A stretch of DNA of 22,404 nt. It comes from a virus. The notes under the pieces are model-generated. The model was not told the DNA's origin. It worked only from the letters and a program-made list of their open reading frames with translations, and searched no databases. Below, one piece after another: positions 3,047-16,063 of the stretch. The DNA lies in IMG/VR virus record IMGVR_UViG_3300033149_003493, positions 1 through 22,404 of that record. One strand, 5' to 3'. Position 1 is the first letter of the stretch; each line of letters starts with the position of its first letter. The translations under genes and the position numbers were made by a program.

Positions 3047-3643
3047 GTGGCTAATATACCAAAAAAGAAGTTTGAAATAAAGAAAAGGGCAAGATTCGAT
3101 GCATCCTGGCTTCCTGTAATTCAAAATCTTACTGCGTTAGGATTAAATGAAAGTGATATAGGAGTAATCCTTGGTTATACTGGAAAGAATGCCAGGGATT
3201 GGCTTAATAATTTAAAGAAAAACCATCCAGAAGTAAAGGATGCTTGGGAATTAGGTAAAAGAATAGCTGATGTTCAGTTAGTAACCAAAGCCTTTCTTGC
3301 TGCAACTGGATATGATTATAAGCAAGAGAAAGTAAAATATAAAGCAGTAACAAAATACGATGGTGATAAGCCTTATACTGATTGGGTTGAAACAGAACGG
3401 GAAGAAGTTTTAAAGCACGCTAAATCTGACCCTGCTGTTTTGAAATTTTTGTTGTGTAATAGACTTCCTGAATTTTTCTCTGAAACTAAAAGATTGGAAA
3501 TTGATAAAACAATTTTGAGTCTTGAGGGAAAAGATATGGAGGCAGAGATTAAAGCTTTTGCCGGTCGTCTTTTTGAGATTGCTGATAATAAAACGATAGA
3601 TGCTGAATTTGTGGATAAGGAAGCAGATGAAGCTACCAGATAA
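3047..3643 (+). CDS. terminase small subunit
   Basis: The product has 198 residues and starts with GTG at 3047. TerS recognises the packaging site on phage DNA and regulates the large subunit. Residues about 28-55 (GLNESDIGVILGYTGKNARDW) form a helix-turn-helix-like DNA-binding segment. The following region with AATGYDYKQEKV resembles the 'A..YDY.E..v' stretch of small terminases, and SDPAVLKFLLCNRLPEFF matches the typical 'DP.a..f.L.nR.P..w' element. Position supports the call, because the large-terminase ATPase gene overlaps its end by 17 bases. No close ribosome binding site precedes the GTG; AGGGGAT lies about 14 bases upstream. Sequence identity between TerS families is low, so the exact family is uncertain. 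Confidence 0.75.
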   Translation: MANIPKKKFEIKKRARFDASWLPVIQNLTALGLNESDIGVILGYTGKNARDWLNNLKKNHPEVKDAWELGKRIADVQLVTKAFLAATGYDYKQEKVKYKAVTKYDGDKPYTDWVETEREEVLKHAKSDPAVLKFLLCNRLPEFFSETKRLEIDKTILSLEGKDMEAEIKAFAGRLFEIADNKTIDAEFVDKEADEATR

Positions 3644-4541
3644 TCCAAAAGCATTTTATGATTTAATTCCAACGGATATTCAAGAAAATCTGAAATTTAG
3701 GATTAGACTGCATAATTTACTTGCAAAAGATAAAGGGCTGCAAGATTTTTATTTAGGATTATGTTTAGAATATTTTCCGATATTATTTTCAAGTTGTTTT
3801 TGGACATATAATCCACAAAAGCCACCAGGAGAAAGAAATCAACCGTTTATTTTAAGGCCAAAACAAATTGAGACTGTTAATGTTTTGGATTGGTGTGTTA
3901 AAAATGAAAACGATTTTGCAATAAATAAAAGTAGAAAAGAAGGTGCTTCGGAGATTATTGTTAAATATTTTGTTGGGTATGCTCTTCTAAACGAAGATAC
4001 ACATTTTATTTTAGGTTCTCGAACAAAAGAACTTGTTGACAATATTGGAGACCCTACTACTTTATTTGCCAAAGCAGATTATACTCTTAACTCTTTACCT
4101 TCTTGGTTAAAAAAGCGGATTAGATATAATCCTAAAACAGACAGAAAAGATATGCAATTAAAGATAAGGGCTACTAATTCTTCTTTATCTGGTTCAACAA
4201 CGAATGAAAGTTTTAGTGCTGGCAGTAGGGCAACCGCATTATTGTTAGATGAGAATGGCAGAATTTGGCCTCTCAATTTAGCTGAATCTATCGAAGGTTC
4301 TGTACACGATATTTCAAATTGTGTTATTTATAATTCTACTCATTGGTTTGGAGAGAATCATCCGTTTAATAAAGCTATTCATAGAAAATCAACAAAAGTT
4401 GTTACTCTTTTTTGGTGGGAAAATCCAGAGAAGGCAAAATTTCTTTATTCAACTCCTGAACCTGGAGTTGTAGAATTGCTTGATGTTGAACGATATAAAG
4501 AAAATTATCCTGAATTATTTGATTATGCAGAAAAAGACTAA
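3627..4541 (+). CDS. terminase large subunit, N-terminal ATPase part (split gene)
   Basis: This 304-residue protein is only the motor half of TerL. It has the adenine-binding Q-like motif FILRPKQ (73-79), a variant Walker A KSRKEGASE (101-109), Walker B ALLLDE (204-209) and a coupling segment YNSTH (235-239). It stops after DYAEKD at 4541. The nuclease domain that follows in ordinary TerL is encoded 450 bases on, in another frame. I choose the start at 3627, because AAGGAAG lies just upstream of it and it gives a sensible N-terminus. The longer frame from 3600 has no such site. The 17-base overlap with TerS suggests coupling. The ATPase motifs are intact, so the protein is probably made and would have to work with the separate nuclease. 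Confidence 0.85.
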   Translation: MKLPDNPKAFYDLIPTDIQENLKFRIRLHNLLAKDKGLQDFYLGLCLEYFPILFSSCFWTYNPQKPPGERNQPFILRPKQIETVNVLDWCVKNENDFAINKSRKEGASEIIVKYFVGYALLNEDTHFILGSRTKELVDNIGDPTTLFAKADYTLNSLPSWLKKRIRYNPKTDRKDMQLKIRATNSSLSGSTTNESFSAGSRATALLLDENGRIWPLNLAESIEGSVHDISNCVIYNSTHWFGENHPFNKAIHRKSTKVVTLFWWENPEKAKFLYSTPEPGVVELLDVERYKENYPELFDYAEKD

Positions 4542-5013
4542 AATTTGTAAAAAATGCAAAAAAGAGTTAGATTTTAATTCTTTTTATAAAAACAAAGATG
4601 GAAAAGACGGGTATCGAAATGTGTGCAAAATTTGTTCACGAAAATCTCAACGAGATTATAAACGGAATAATTATAAAAAGAATCCTGAATATTATAAAAA
4701 AGCAGTAAATAAATGGAGAAAAAATAATCCTAAAAAAGTGAAAAAAACAAAGAAAAATTGGCAATTGAAATCTGATTATGGGATTACATTGGAACAATAT
4801 AATGAGATGTTTCAAAAACAACAAGGATGTTGTGCTGTTTGCGGTAGACATCAATCTGAGTTAAAAAGAGCTTTAGCCGTTGACCACAATCATAAAACAG
4901 GACAGTTAAGAAAATTGCTTTGTGATAGATGTAATGTTGGTCTTGGCTTTATTGAAGATTCAGAATATTTGAAGAAAGCGATAGAATATTTGAATGAATT
5001 CAATTTTATTTAA
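4525..5013 (+). CDS. endonuclease VII-like HNH nuclease inserted in the terminase
   Basis: The product is 162 residues from ATG 4525. An N-terminal zinc finger (C8, C11, C34, C37) is followed by a very basic linker (about 40-80). A His-Me/HNH domain of the recombination-endonuclease-VII type follows: YGITLEQY, zinc cysteines 103/106 and 133/136, the catalytic DHNH at 120-123, and KTGQLRKLLCDRCNVGLG with the conserved Asn 137. It overlaps the ATPase gene by 17 bases and the nuclease-half gene by 20. It occupies almost exactly the break in TerL. Such freestanding HNH genes act as mobile homing nucleases that cut alleles lacking the insert. Neither the 4525 start nor the alternative TTG/ATG at 4480/4483 has a well-spaced ribosome binding site. 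Confidence 0.85.
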   Translation: MQKKTKICKKCKKELDFNSFYKNKDGKDGYRNVCKICSRKSQRDYKRNNYKKNPEYYKKAVNKWRKNNPKKVKKTKKNWQLKSDYGITLEQYNEMFQKQQGCCAVCGRHQSELKRALAVDHNHKTGQLRKLLCDRCNVGLGFIEDSEYLKKAIEYLNEFNFI

Positions 5014-6097
5014 ACATAATAAACCGATTAGGATTGTTGTTGATAAACTTCCTAAACATTTAAGAAAACTCTTTATTGCAGATGGCGGATTGAATTTACC
5101 TTTACCCTTACGTTCTCCTTGGCATGATGAAGAAGAGGAAAAGAGAAGAGGGAATAAAAGAGATTTTTATTGTAATATATGGGGAACTCCTATTGGTTCT
5201 TCTGACTCTGTATTTGATGTTAATATTTTAGCTAAAATTGAAAAAAGATGTAAGCCTCCTAATTATGTTGGAGAGATTATTTTTGATTATGATGACTTTG
5301 GTAAAATCTCAACGAGTAATTTTATAGTTAATCACGGCAGAAAAAGATTAAAATGGTGGGGAGAACTTAAAAACAATCGTCCTAATCAAGAACATAATTA
5401 TATTATTGGATGCGACCCTTCTTATGGAATGGGTTCTTCTAATTCAGTTGCAAGTATCTATGATGTGAATACTTCTGAAGAAATAGGAAAATGGGTTTGT
5501 CCTAATACCCCACCAGAAGATTTTGCTGACCTTGTAGTTGCTTTAAGTAGATGGATAGGAGGGATAAATAATCCCTTCATAATTTGGGAGAATAATGGAG
5601 GACACGGAACTAATTTTACTAATCGGCTTGTTTGGCATCGTTATCCAAGATTATATACACAAAAAACCGAAGATACTAAAATTAGAAAAATTGGTAGAAG
5701 ATATGGATGGAGAAGCAATAAAAATACTAAAGAACAACTTTTAGGAGAACTGGGAGTAGCTTTAAGTGGAGGATTATTAGATAAAAAATATAAAGCAATA
5801 AAAATTTATGATATAGACCTCTTAAATGAATTAAGAGATTATATGTATGTTGGAAGTGAAATAACGTCAAGTGCGAAAGCTGATTTATCTTCTGGTGCAA
5901 GAGAAAGACACGGAGATAGAGTTATAGCTGCTGCTCTTTGTGTTTTAGGGACAAGGGATGCTCCTCCTGGATTTTGGGAAAGAAAAAATGATGCTCCCTT
6001 CGGAACTTTCGCCCATAGGTTTTTTGAAGAAAAGAAAAAAGACCAAGAAAAAGAAACAAAAGAAAAATTTAGAAGAAGGGAATACTTATTTAGATGA
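4994..6097 (+). CDS. terminase large subunit, C-terminal nuclease part (split gene)
   Basis: The product has 367 residues and is the headful/cos-cutting nuclease half of TerL. It begins in the linker to the nuclease domain: RSPWHDEEE at about 40-48 matches the conserved 'RSPW.D.E' step before this domain. The RNase H-fold acidic residues follow: D141 in IIGCDPSYG, E199 in FIIWENNGGHG, and D308 in ERHGDRVIAAA. The C-terminus is highly basic. In frame, a TGA (4991-4993) immediately precedes the ATG, so this part cannot be read through from upstream. No ribosome binding site is apparent, which suggests coupling to the HNH gene. Its stop overlaps the portal start (ATGA). Confidence 0.85.
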   Translation: MNSILFKHNKPIRIVVDKLPKHLRKLFIADGGLNLPLPLRSPWHDEEEEKRRGNKRDFYCNIWGTPIGSSDSVFDVNILAKIEKRCKPPNYVGEIIFDYDDFGKISTSNFIVNHGRKRLKWWGELKNNRPNQEHNYIIGCDPSYGMGSSNSVASIYDVNTSEEIGKWVCPNTPPEDFADLVVALSRWIGGINNPFIIWENNGGHGTNFTNRLVWHRYPRLYTQKTEDTKIRKIGRRYGWRSNKNTKEQLLGELGVALSGGLLDKKYKAIKIYDIDLLNELRDYMYVGSEITSSAKADLSSGARERHGDRVIAAALCVLGTRDAPPGFWERKNDAPFGTFAHRFFEEKKKDQEKETKEKFRRREYLFR

Positions 6098-7833
6098 GCC
6101 AAAGAGTTATTGACCTATACGAACATAATTTGAAACAAAGTTTTCCAGCTAAGTTGCAAATAATGGCAAAGGCTTGGCGGGAAAAGTGGAAAGAGCCTTT
6201 AAGAAAAAATCAGAAATTGCTTAAATTGTGGGCTTCTGGATATTTTTCTTCAACTTATGATAGGGAACATTTGATAAATCTTATTGATAGAGCTTTATTT
6301 ACTATTGTCCCTTATCTTGTAGAAGGAAATCCTGAAGTCCTTGTGGAAACCAAAATTCCTAATATCAGACCGTGGGCAAAAACAGTTCAACTGGGATTAA
6401 ATTTTCTTATGGAGAAATATAACTTTGCTGAAAATGTTTTAATCCCTGTTGTGATAAACTCAATGTTTGGAGCTGGAATAACCAGAACAATTTTTGAATA
6501 TGATAGGGTTATTTCTTTAGATAATGATGTTATTAAAGCTGGTTCTCCAAGAGTAATAGTTATTGACCCTGCGAATTATATTGGAGACCCTTCGGCAAAA
6601 AGACGTAGTGATTTTGTGATTGAGGGAGATATTTATAGGCTTCCAACAGATTATGCAAGGGATTTATTTTCAAAATATGCTGACCATATTAAACCTGATT
6701 GTAAATTAGCTACAAAATTTGGCGCAGAAGAAATATCTTCTCCGAATTTTGATTACAATAGAATGTCATTAAGGAGTTACAGCACCTTTATTGATATTTA
6801 TTGTAAAGATGATAATACAATTAAAACAATTATGCCAGAAGGAAAGAAGGCTGTTATTTTAAGAGAGGTTGAATGGGATGGCCCTCGTGGCGGGCCTTAT
6901 GATTATTTGGCTTATCGGTGGTATCCTGATACTCCTATTCCCCTTCCCCCTATGTGGTTTATTCACGACCTTGATGTTACTATGAATGTGTTAGCCAAAA
7001 CTGCAAGGGAACAAGCAGAAAGTCAAAAGAACATTGTTTTCGTTCCTCCTGAAGCAAGAGAGGCTGGAAAGAAAATTGTTAATGCTAAAAACTTAGATGT
7101 TTTAGAAGCATCTTCTACTGAATTGATTAAGGCTATTTCTCTTGGTGGAGTAAATCCGGAGAATTATACTTGGATGGGTTTTGCAGAAAATGCTTTTACA
7201 AAAACAGGAGTAAATGCAGATGTAGTTGCAGGAAGGGGTGCACAATCTCCTACTTACGGTCAGGAAAAGATGATTTTTCGTAATGCCAGTAGAATAATTG
7301 AAACAATGTATAATCGTTTTCACTCTTTTACTGAGTCTATTTTGAAGAAGTTTGCTTGGGGGATATTAACAGACCCTTCTGTTTATATTCCAGATATTAT
7401 TAAGATACCTGGAGTTGGAGAACTGCCGGTTGTTCTTTCTCAGGCTGATAAAGTTGGAGATTTTTATGATTTGATTTTCAAAATAATTCCTTATTCAACA
7501 CAGCGAATATCTCCAGAAGAGAAATATGCAAAAACTATGCAGTTTGCTACACAGTGGTTATTACCAACAATGCAAATTGCTGCTGCTCAAGGTGCTCAAT
7601 TGGATATACCTCTTGTAACAAAGATTATGGCCTCTTATTTTGGTCTTGATAATTTTGAACATTATTATAAAACTGTTGTACCTACTAATGTTGATAATGC
7701 TCCTTTTATGATGTTTCCAAAGAAAAATAAATTTGGACAAACTTCTGACGCTTTTGGAACAAACCAACAAAACAGGGAAGCTAATTTTCAACAACAGCAG
7801 GAACGCACTGCTTTGGAGGAGGAAGAAGAATGA
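6094..7833 (+). CDS. portal protein
   Basis: This 579-residue protein follows the terminase directly and has the composition and layout of a portal, the dodecameric ring at the capsid vertex through which DNA passes. An N-terminal helical segment is followed by WASGYFSSTYDREHLINLIDRA. A wing region contains VIVIDPANYIGDPSAKRRSDF, where 'DP...DP.A...D' is characteristic of podovirus- and siphovirus-like portals. A long helical stem/crown segment contains EQAESQKNIVF and SLGGVNPENYTWMGF. The C-terminus is Gln-rich and ends in a run of Glu. Those Glu codons (GAGGAGGAAGAA) also supply the ribosome binding site for the next gene. The start overlaps the terminase stop by four bases. Length is normal for a portal. 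Confidence 0.85.
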   Translation: MSQRVIDLYEHNLKQSFPAKLQIMAKAWREKWKEPLRKNQKLLKLWASGYFSSTYDREHLINLIDRALFTIVPYLVEGNPEVLVETKIPNIRPWAKTVQLGLNFLMEKYNFAENVLIPVVINSMFGAGITRTIFEYDRVISLDNDVIKAGSPRVIVIDPANYIGDPSAKRRSDFVIEGDIYRLPTDYARDLFSKYADHIKPDCKLATKFGAEEISSPNFDYNRMSLRSYSTFIDIYCKDDNTIKTIMPEGKKAVILREVEWDGPRGGPYDYLAYRWYPDTPIPLPPMWFIHDLDVTMNVLAKTAREQAESQKNIVFVPPEAREAGKKIVNAKNLDVLEASSTELIKAISLGGVNPENYTWMGFAENAFTKTGVNADVVAGRGAQSPTYGQEKMIFRNASRIIETMYNRFHSFTESILKKFAWGILTDPSVYIPDIIKIPGVGELPVVLSQADKVGDFYDLIFKIIPYSTQRISPEEKYAKTMQFATQWLLPTMQIAAAQGAQLDIPLVTKIMASYFGLDNFEHYYKTVVPTNVDNAPFMMFPKKNKFGQTSDAFGTNQQNREANFQQQQERTALEEEEE

Positions 7834-8501
7834 GAAAGAGATTTTTAATACCCTTGATGTTATCTTTTTTGTTATTGTTTAGTATTAAGATAAACGAATA
7901 TATTCATCCTGTTTTTCCAGAAGCTGTTAAAATAAAAGTTCAAGGAATTTATTTTTCTGAATGGGGAGGAGGTTTAGAAAGTTGGGAAGGGTCTGCTGTT
8001 TTTATAGATGATAATTTATTGTTAACTGCTGGACATTGTGTAAAGGATGCAAATAATATAACTATTGTTTATGCAGATGGTAGAGAATGTAAAGCTGCAA
8101 GTTGGTATTTGCTTGATGAGTATATTACAGATTTAGGTATTATTAGGGTAGATACTCCTGAAATTGAACCGAAAGCAGTATTTTCTAATCCTAAAGTCGG
8201 AGAGAGTGTTATAGTTATCGGTAATCCATTTGGGTATTGGCCGGTAAGAACTGAAGGAATTATTTCTGCTGTAAATATAGATGAAGATTTTTTTGGTGAA
8301 AAGAATTTAGTTTTAACAGATGCTGCTATAAATCCAGGCAATTCAGGTTGCCCAGTTTATAATAAAAGAGGGTATATATTGGGTATTGTTGTGGGTGCAA
8401 TTAGAGGAGCACAAGGAAATAACTTTATTGTACCTGCTAAAATTTGTAAAATTGTTATAGATAAATATAAAATAGAGAAAGAATTAGAGGAGATGGATTA
8501 A
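7830..8501 (+). CDS. HtrA/trypsin-like serine protease with N-terminal signal anchor
   Basis: The product is 223 residues. After basic residues, 5-19 form a hydrophobic signal peptide or anchor (FLIPLMLSFLLLFSI). A chymotrypsin-fold protease domain follows with the complete triad: H69 in LLLTAGHC, D101 in TDLGII, S172 in DAAINPGNSGCPV. The last motif is the hallmark of the DegP/HtrA (S1C) group, although the usual GNSGGP carries Cys in place of the second Gly. There is no PDZ domain; the protein ends soon after the protease domain. It sits between portal and scaffold, where phages often encode a prohead protease, but the signal anchor would send it to the membrane or out of the cell. The ATGA overlap with the portal shows coupling. 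Confidence 0.85.
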   Translation: MRKRFLIPLMLSFLLLFSIKINEYIHPVFPEAVKIKVQGIYFSEWGGGLESWEGSAVFIDDNLLLTAGHCVKDANNITIVYADGRECKAASWYLLDEYITDLGIIRVDTPEIEPKAVFSNPKVGESVIVIGNPFGYWPVRTEGIISAVNIDEDFFGEKNLVLTDAAINPGNSGCPVYNKRGYILGIVVGAIRGAQGNNFIVPAKICKIVIDKYKIEKELEEMD

Positions 8502-14606: not shown

Positions 14607-15305
14607 ATGAGTAGTTTGCGACTAACATTTGAGGATGTGTATAATAGAGTATCTGAGTTTTTGGGTTCAGGTTCTGCCCCTTCGGATTCTGATGTTTTAA
14701 CCTCTGTTAAAGAGTTAACCTATCGAGGTTATCGTAGATTCCTTTTTCCTATTGACCCTGAAACAAAATTTCCTTATTATTGGAGTTTTTTAAGAAAACA
14801 AGCTACTTTAAAAGTAGAAGATGGAAAATGGGTTTATCTTCTGCCTGATGATTTTGTAAATCTTGTAAGTGGTTTTAAGTTTATTACTGGAGAGGATAAG
14901 GATAATCCTGAACTTAGAAGCGAATCTCAAATACTTGGTATGCGAAGTGAGTCTATTGCTGAAGGAACGCCTTCTTATTATGCAATAAGACCTTCGACTT
15001 ATGAACGTACAGTAGGTCAGAAACAGGAAGTAATTTTTTGGAAAACGCCTGACGCTTCTTATGATTATTCTTATACATATATTTTTGACCCTGAAAAGCC
15101 TATCGATACTACTGATGTATTTGTTGGAACTGCCAGAGTTTCAGAGATAATTTTGCAATGTGCTTTAGCTGCTGCTGAACTTCAGGAAGATGAAGAAGTA
15201 GGCCCACAAGAAGCTAAAGCTGCTGAAATGATAAATGCTTTAATGATACAGGATAAGGCTTTCCCTCGAATGTATGACCCTAATCTTTATACTGGAAGGA
15301 CATAA
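14607..15305 (+). CDS. head-tail adaptor-like protein, copy 1
   Basis: The product is 232 residues. LTFEDVYNRVSEFLG at the start, RGYRRFLFPID, YYWSFLRKQATLKV and WVYLLPDDFVNLV match phage adaptor proteins of the T7-gp11-like/DUF6682-like type, which sit below the portal. A later region TPDASYDYSYTYIFDPEKP and a helical end with VSEIILQCALAAAELQED complete the pattern. It is a clear paralogue of the next gene over its full length. GAGGGATAAGA precedes the ATG. It follows directly after the double hairpin. The adaptor call is from motif and position and could also be read as a neck connector. Confidence 0.7.
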   Translation: MSSLRLTFEDVYNRVSEFLGSGSAPSDSDVLTSVKELTYRGYRRFLFPIDPETKFPYYWSFLRKQATLKVEDGKWVYLLPDDFVNLVSGFKFITGEDKDNPELRSESQILGMRSESIAEGTPSYYAIRPSTYERTVGQKQEVIFWKTPDASYDYSYTYIFDPEKPIDTTDVFVGTARVSEIILQCALAAAELQEDEEVGPQEAKAAEMINALMIQDKAFPRMYDPNLYTGRT

Positions 15306-16063
15306 TGGCAAAACTAAGTTTAACATTTTCTGATATATACAAAGAAGTTGCTGAATTTCTTGGTTTTACTGATTCCCCTACGGATGCTGATAAAAAGAAA
15401 GTTAAGAAGATAGTCTGGAGGGGGTATAGGAATTTTTTATATCCTCTTGATATTACAGGTAAATTACATCACTGGAGTTTTCTGAGTAAGCATTATACTT
15501 TCACAACTAATAGTGAATGGAAATATGCTTTACCTGACGATTTTTCAGAGATATTAACTGACCCTGTTTTTGATAAAGATACAGGCTATCCTCAATTAAC
15601 TAAAGTTGATGGAAATTGGATAATGCGAAAAAGGGCAGCAGCAGAATATAGTACTTATCCTGAATATTATGCAATTGTTTCAACTGGATATAGTTTGGAA
15701 ACAGGTACAAAATATGAAATGTGGTTGTACCCTACTCCAAATCAGGGTTATTTACTTTCTTTTTTCTATCGTTTTGACCCATCGAAACCAGAGGATGTAA
15801 CTAATTTGTTAGTTGGTGGGGTGAGATTAAGCGAAGCTATATTAGAGTCGTGTTTAGCTGTGGCTGAACATCAATATAAAGGGGAGCTTGGAATACATAA
15901 CCAGTTAGCAACCGAACTAATTAGAAGGATGGTTGTTGCTGATAAGGTAATAAATGGTAGTTATATTGGAAATTTATATGGGCCTCATTTAATTTGGCCT
16001 CGTGATTACAATACGATTTCAGATGTGGACATCACAACTGAAAATATGTACAGTGGAGATTGA
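15305..16063 (+). CDS. head-tail adaptor-like protein, copy 2
   Basis: The product is 252 residues and parallels the preceding protein: LTFSDIYKEVAEFLGF, RGYRNFLYPLD, HHWSFLSKHYTFTT, WKYALPDDFSEIL, LLSFFYRFDPSKP, VRLSEAILESCLAVAEHQ. Its C-terminus is longer (a NLYGPHLIWPRDYN segment). The start overlaps the upstream TAA by one base (TAATG). Two adjacent paralogues might form a mixed ring or two stacked rings in the neck, or one may have taken a new role. The general family call is fairly secure; which copy contacts the portal cannot be told. Confidence 0.7.
   Translation: MAKLSLTFSDIYKEVAEFLGFTDSPTDADKKKVKKIVWRGYRNFLYPLDITGKLHHWSFLSKHYTFTTNSEWKYALPDDFSEILTDPVFDKDTGYPQLTKVDGNWIMRKRAAAEYSTYPEYYAIVSTGYSLETGTKYEMWLYPTPNQGYLLSFFYRFDPSKPEDVTNLLVGGVRLSEAILESCLAVAEHQYKGELGIHNQLATELIRRMVVADKVINGSYIGNLYGPHLIWPRDYNTISDVDITTENMYSGD

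Follow-up and report, generated by a model that had tools for sequence, protein, structure and literature searches.

In all terminases solved to date, the ASCE ATPase core, the lid and the nuclease lie in one chain (PMC5727402), and in the large terminase subunit (TerL) of D6E they follow one another as ASCE core, lid, short linker and nuclease (PMC5727402). Phage genes that occur as two working pieces around an HNH gene are established, the examples being Aeh1 nrdA with mobE and T4 gene 60 with mobA, and seg and mob genes have overlaps of 11 to 24 bases (PMC2988022). TerL genes interrupted by introns or inteins are known as well, and splicing has been shown in several of them (PMC7344957, PMC11878797, PMC10448857, PMC3322345, PMC12363816). 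Here we discuss the terminase locus of IMG/VR record IMGVR_UViG_3300033149_003493, positions 1 to 22,404 (the window), a 22.4-kb fragment of an uncultivated tailed phage in which TerL is encoded in two genes with a free-standing endonuclease VII-like HNH gene between them. Comparison with relatives shows TerL split at this same point in several phage lineages and makes it likely that the two products form a working two-polypeptide terminase and that the junction is a repeated landing site for mobile genes.

The locus is like Aeh1 nrdA/mobE and T4 gene 60/mobA in having an essential gene in two pieces, a free-standing HNH gene between them and short overlaps. It differs in that the gene is a terminase, the split recurs in several lineages and often lacks an HNH gene, and the HNH protein is of the endonuclease VII type; moreover, Aeh1 NrdA has been shown to work in pieces, whereas the split TerL described here is predicted to. 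The interrupted terL genes of CB7, Bastillevirinae, ICP1, the Jug phages and Campylobacter phage IBB_35 share the broken coding sequence and often a homing endonuclease gene, but splicing of RNA or protein rejoins their parts, or is thought to, while the window lacks a splicing element and leaves no space for one. HNH genes of the HK97 gp74 type likewise belong to the packaging module, but the gene discussed here is placed within the TerL locus and occurs sporadically. The ATPase-module and nuclease folds are those of the TerLs of T4 (gp17), P74-26, G20c and D6E, which are single polypeptides, whereas here the ATPase core would be separate from the lid and nuclease. What we report as new is a recurrent two-gene terminase broken at the same point; split genes of the mobE type and interrupted terL genes were already known. 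No report of a naturally two-gene terminase was found in the open-access literature, most subscription papers lying outside the search.

Organization of the terminase locus

The genes, overlaps and motifs of the locus are listed below.

3047 to 3643, plus strand: terminase small subunit-like gene (phrog_309, E=7e-11), directly upstream of the TerL protein 1 gene and overlapping it
3627 to 4541, plus strand: TerL protein 1 (304 residues), the N-terminal part and predicted ATP-hydrolysing core of the ATPase module (phrog_5989, E=1e-5)
About 3921 to 3950 and about 4236 to 4256, plus strand: Walker A-like KSRKEGAS and Walker B LLLDE, respectively, in TerL protein 1
4525 to 4541, plus strand: 17 bases shared by the TerL protein 1 gene and the HNH gene, the latter with its ATG in TATG
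4525 to 5013, plus strand: free-standing endonuclease VII-like HNH gene, 162 residues (PF02945, E=7e-23; phrog_2633, E=2e-35)
4994 to 5013, plus strand: 20-base overlap of the HNH gene and the TerL protein 2 gene, with possible translational coupling
4994 to 6097, plus strand: TerL protein 2 (367 residues), predicted lid subdomain and RNase H-fold nuclease
About 5027 to 5200 and about 5201 to 5971, plus strand: lid and nuclease of TerL protein 2, respectively, with D141 at 5414, E199 at 5588 and D308 at 5915
6094 to 7833, plus strand: gene after TerL, portal by position and size, from the gene order in the window and relatives

The three open reading frames (ORFs) 3627 to 4541, 4525 to 5013 and 4994 to 6097, each in a different frame, and their overlaps are as a preliminary description of the window had given them, as is the TGA directly 5' of the ATG at 4994. 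Its view of the gap gene as endonuclease VII-like agrees with the Pfam Endonuclease_7 match (E=7e-23), and the nuclease residues it named, D141, E199 and D308, align with identical residues in relatives. It had also called the ATPase motifs intact; this holds for Walker B, but the Walker A motif is atypical and lacks GK[ST]. The same form, KSR.EGA, is also present in intact relatives. A Walker A-like motif, a Walker B motif and the acidic nuclease triad of a TerL can all be recognised.

TerL protein 2 was barely recognised in sequence-library searches. Among isolated phages the nuclease part gave one weak match, and the ATPase part matched many TerLs at 24 to 34% identity. A TerL profile run against PDB sequences matched nothing; fold comparison alone succeeded. 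No host or prophage relative was found in the bacterial genome contigs searched. The packaging genes run in the order small terminase (by its phrog_309 match), TerL and portal-like gene, the last placed by position and size only; it has no Pfam match, and its best PHROG is phrog_1078 (E=0.075). The G+C content of the HNH gene is 27.6%, versus 31 to 33% in both TerL genes.

Intact relatives and a second assembly

Relatives both with and without the insert were found. The nearest, L003, lies on a separate contig and has one uninterrupted TerL of 674 residues that is 82% identical in protein sequence, and L006 has an intact TerL of 661 residues with about 50% identity. TerL protein 1 corresponds to L003 residues 1 to 302 and TerL protein 2 to residues 315 to 674 (each 82% identical), with 7 unmatched residues at the N terminus of protein 2. 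Aligning both halves with an intact TerL, a check put forward in the preliminary description, thus leaves 12 linker residues of L003 without a counterpart in the window. At the DNA level, 482 bases of the window replace 36 of L003, and nearly all of them code for the HNH protein.

An assembly error at 4500 to 5000 had been raised as a way in which such a layout could arise. It is not an assembly slip, because a separately assembled IMG/VR contig, IMGVR_UViG_3300033150_001288, keeps the same three genes in an identical layout, with 99.6% DNA identity to the window across 5.9 kb. The two differ by 26 single-nucleotide polymorphisms (SNPs), 0 of which lie in the HNH gene. Window positions 4467 to 5720 are free of SNPs between the window and L002 although 26 occur elsewhere in the 5.9 kb. 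This is a weak hint of gene conversion around the HNH gene; with a chance probability of 0.05, the SNP-free stretch was not used as proof that such conversion was recent.

Position of the break in the TerL fold

The preliminary description expected the break in the linker between ATPase and nuclease, which would divide TerL into an ATPase gene and a nuclease gene. Structural mapping places it elsewhere. An AlphaFold model of the L003 TerL, with a mean predicted local distance difference test (pLDDT) score of 87.5, aligns with full T4 gp17 through both domains (Z 22.6) and also matches the G20c domains. The ATPase domains of T4 and P74-26 cover residues of about 16 to 376 of this model, and their nuclease domains begin at about 375 to 378. 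In an AlphaFold model of TerL protein 2 of the window, residues 70 to 326 match T4 gp17 361 to 562 (Z 22.9), and matches to TerL nucleases, including P74-26 and G20c (Z 19 to 23), run from residue 70 onward only. Because the ATPase match extends to about 376 and the nuclease match begins at about 375 to 378, or at residue 70 of protein 2, the models put the break (L003 residues 302 to 314) within the ATPase module by about 60 to 70 residues, where the ASCE core gives way to the lid. The lid subdomain is thereby predicted to stay with the nuclease on protein 2, so that a part of the ATPase module is encoded with the nuclease. Its helices have pLDDT values of about 56 to 72 when protein 2 is modelled alone versus roughly 66 to 93 in the intact model, which fits, but does not prove, a region that needs its partner. 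In these models all elements of the TerL fold can be traced, namely an ASCE ATPase module, a lid and an RNase H-fold nuclease.

Recurrence of the split

About 50 relatives were gathered by nuclease-motif scans and nuclease alignment, and 15 records share this break in TerL or in whatever portion of TerL they carry. L055 carries 51 bases of the first part on its contig and L074 none of it; L041, whose TerL is interrupted by one in-frame TAA elsewhere in the gene, was left out of the count. The gap between the two parts holds the following.

Window, L002, L065, L064 and L074: HNH gene
L058 and L047: zinc-ribbon ORF, present in L064 too, after the HNH gene
L096, L084 and L081: small ORFs of 63, 68 and 106 residues, respectively
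L085 and L086: short ORF, the insert of L086 being about 90 bases
L083: DNA methyltransferase (phrog_757, E=1e-53)
L087 and L055: no insert, the parts overlapping by 20 and 11 bases, respectively

By this comparison the split point is not peculiar to the HNH insertion of the window, and the best reading is that mobile genes have landed at this TerL gene junction repeatedly. Protein 2 begins, in most splits, within an overlap with the stop of the preceding gene, as in coupled translation. The position of the HNH ATG in the window is the start site of the next ORF or of the nuclease in L058, L065, L064, L055 and L087. The conserved end of the ATPase part in L065, L064 and L058 reads P-E-V-L-E-Y, and a Shine-Dalgarno-like GAGGT lies inside its P-E-V codons, 6 to 7 nucleotides before the next ATG.

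A TerL tree of 41 sequences and 654 columns interleaves split and intact forms and requires at least 6 changes between the two states. The window and L003 are sisters (support 100/100), L065 and L064 are placed among the intact L073, L076 and L078, and L084, L096, L083, L081 and L074 are all split. Gathering all splits into one clade of the gene tree was rejected in an approximately unbiased test (p=8e-7). The TerL of L065 is 84% identical to that of L073 before the gap and 87% identical to that of L078 after it, and these sequences indicate that the two TerL parts recombine, with a breakpoint at the gap. At the gap edges, split TerLs from separate lineages resemble one another more than intact TerLs do when overall identity is equal. 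The split would then have arisen repeatedly at one spot, or one split allele would have spread by recombination, with losses; transfer of one allele between lineages is possible because of the recombination at the gap. Both TerL parts have ratios of nonsynonymous to synonymous substitution (dN/dS) of about 0.05 to 0.10 in the all-split L096, L084, L081 and L083 (dS about 0.6 to 2), similar to intact controls, and by this measure both parts are under purifying selection in the all-split lineages.

Several other features of the relatives concern this region. Among the close relatives L065, L073 and L078 the TerL linker region falls into several sequence classes that are unrelated to one another, and recombination has breakpoints at the gap. 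At L058:8415-8445 the zinc-ribbon ORF is followed by a repeat of the ATPase gene end, AATTACCCAGAAGTATTAGAATATG, which reads NYPEVLEY and looks like a second copy of the split junction brought along by the insert. The ATPase part of L083 (L083:26-1043), upstream of the methyltransferase gene in the gap, reads in two frames, with a frameshift near 650 to 700. The in-frame TAA of L041 (L041:1482-1484) interrupts an otherwise intact TerL where relatives have Glu in GETTNE; a sequencing error, suppression or a broken gene are possible readings.

The HNH gene and its relatives

The HNH nuclease domain of the window lies in a gene of its own, and its pattern of an empty site in relatives and a sporadic distribution is that of a homing endonuclease. 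In the L003 phage, an HNH relative 45% identical to that of the window sits exactly at the stop-start junction of two genes whose homologues, 14607 to 15305 and 15305 to 16063, abut in the window. Endonuclease VII-type genes also lie at the scaffold/capsid junction of the L096 phage, and in two further phages one follows the capsid gene (L058) or precedes the scaffold gene (L006); none was found on several long contigs, for example G011 (53.7 kb) and G015 (48.9 kb). The HNH genes of the TerL gap have a mutual identity of 32 to 43% and frequently have nearer kin among HNH genes located elsewhere, and they were therefore rejected as a single recently homing family. In the TerL sisters L064 and L065 the gap HNH genes are 39% identical, while the nuclease genes are 79% identical in DNA. 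Divergent HNH genes in the gap and HNH genes at other junctions form the pattern that would be expected if HNH genes had repeatedly entered an existing junction or been exchanged there.

The preliminary description had the HNH gene splitting TerL. Instead, this gene probably entered an existing junction as a later passenger: such genes appear to favour existing junctions, because the relative in the L003 phage sits at the stop-start junction of abutting genes, and the recurrence of this break around other genes, or around no gene at all, makes the HNH gene an improbable cause of it. On the order of events the evidence leans towards the split coming first and the HNH gene second. The two window genes 14607 to 15305 and 15305 to 16063 are neighbouring paralogues, about 40% identical via their L003 homologues. 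On phage contigs the best relative of the window HNH gene (41%) is in L008 (L008:1287-3700), where it overlaps a distant, intact TerL gene at the end of the latter and is followed by the next gene.

A probable terminase in two polypeptides and competing explanations

In the proposed mechanism TerL is made as two separately translated proteins, an ASCE ATPase core (3627 to 4541) and a lid-plus-nuclease protein (4994 to 6097), which most likely assemble into a working motor with no peptide bond between them. The window is one case of a same-point split-TerL allele in several lineages of uncultivated tailed phages. Its junction is built like other tight late-operon junctions, with the next start inside or touching the previous stop, and has received mobile genes repeatedly, here a free-standing endonuclease VII-type HNH endonuclease that the split probably preceded. 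The working two-subunit TerL of the preliminary description gains support from the conservation of the parts, from purifying selection and from the records searched for a second TerL; the second intact copy that would have spoken against it was found on none of the ten, which include a 39-kb sister of the window. Several points weigh on the other side. The starts of the window itself have weak Shine-Dalgarno sequences only, and the contigs are metagenomic fragments, which leaves some chance of a further TerL in the rest of the genome. Recombination of the TerL parts makes a tree of the joined parts only a guide and the count of independent events uncertain. Finally, the nearest relative, L003, is intact, and the split in the window lineage could be recent and caused by the HNH gene.

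This last point leads to the chief rival, in which the HNH gene itself split TerL in the window lineage in the manner of mobE, L003 being the pre-insertion state and the other splits separate. The intact L003 as a fully supported sister, the near-exact filling of the gap by the HNH gene and the parallel with mobE in Aeh1 nrdA and mobA in T4 gene 60 (PMC2988022) speak for it. Yet the same point is broken in other lineages with no HNH gene or no insert at all, the likeness of gap edges among split forms fits an old or transferred split allele, and the HNH gene of the L003 phage at a stop-start junction suggests that such genes favour existing junctions; we regard an HNH-caused split as unlikely, if worth keeping in view. 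It is quite improbable that the HNH protein works in the packaging machinery and has been kept beside TerL for that reason. HNH proteins encoded near terminase genes can be required for packaging, as is HK97 gp74 (PMC10448857, PMC8861465), and in L008 the best relative is flanked by an intact, distant TerL and the gene that follows. T4 endonuclease VII, for its part, acts on branched DNA before packaging. The gene, however, is in the TerL gap of only some relatives, is elsewhere in others and was not found on G011 and G015; this sporadic occurrence set aside a conserved packaging-module HNH gene of the HK97 gp74 type.

Two further explanations would restore one TerL chain. Joining of the parts during translation, by frameshifting or bypassing, would suit the +1 frame that the next ORF has relative to the preceding one in the window, L065, L087 and L055, but the window would require two shifts through the HNH frame, L058, L064, L096, L084, L083 and L086 differ in frames and gaps with each ORF having its own start, and no shared slippery site was noticed by eye; this makes joining in translation very improbable. 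An HNH gene inside a self-splicing intron, with one TerL made from spliced mRNA, has precedents in the HNH-bearing spliced terL introns of Pectobacterium phage CB7 (PMC7344957) and Bastillevirinae (PMC11878797) and in the spliced terL of ICP1 (PMC10448857). Against it, Rfam searches at permissive and gathering thresholds gave no credible match in the window or in 12 other split loci, and the HNH frame takes up the whole insert (482 bases for 36), in line with the little room for a group I core seen earlier, versus about 350 non-coding bases in phage introns (PMC11878797). L087 and L055 have no insert, and the roughly 90 bases of L086 are too short for a group I core. An intron was rejected on these grounds and has, in our estimate, hardly any probability left. 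An intein was discarded as before, since the insert is not in frame with its flanks and the three frames differ and contain stop codons. A broken gene or assembly error, which might be suspected of a single metagenomic contig, is scarcely credible given the identical layout in the second assembly, the retained catalytic residues, the low dN/dS and the 15 records with the same break.

Other features of the window

A gene at 7830 to 8501, between the portal-like and capsid genes, encodes a trypsin-like serine protease with a GNSG motif seen by eye. It is possibly an unusual prohead protease, and L008 has one near its TerL too. Within positions 1 to 2300 the genes are encoded on the minus strand and reach to about 2295, running against the packaging and structural genes; this block begins with the start of a 3'-5' exonuclease-like protein (ISIDFETTSLD).

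Significance for terminase function and phage surveys

More tentatively, a bipartite terminase may be a feature of a large uncultivated phage group, with core and lid-nuclease subunits and movement transmitted across a non-covalent interface; the split would then be a long-lived, recombining allele and the junction a landing site for mobile genes. Packaging models disagree on the way in which the lid and nuclease are set in motion when the ASCE core hydrolyses ATP. Were a terminase repeatedly cut at the boundary of core and lid, a covalent link there would prove dispensable. Such a cut would let the parts vary and mix independently and would offer a genetic handle on the coupling of the motor. 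It would also make an essential structural gene a repeated landing site for mobile genes that involves neither introns nor inteins. Either part by itself gets a poor score in profile libraries, so phage surveys based on TerL can overlook such phages or count them wrongly.

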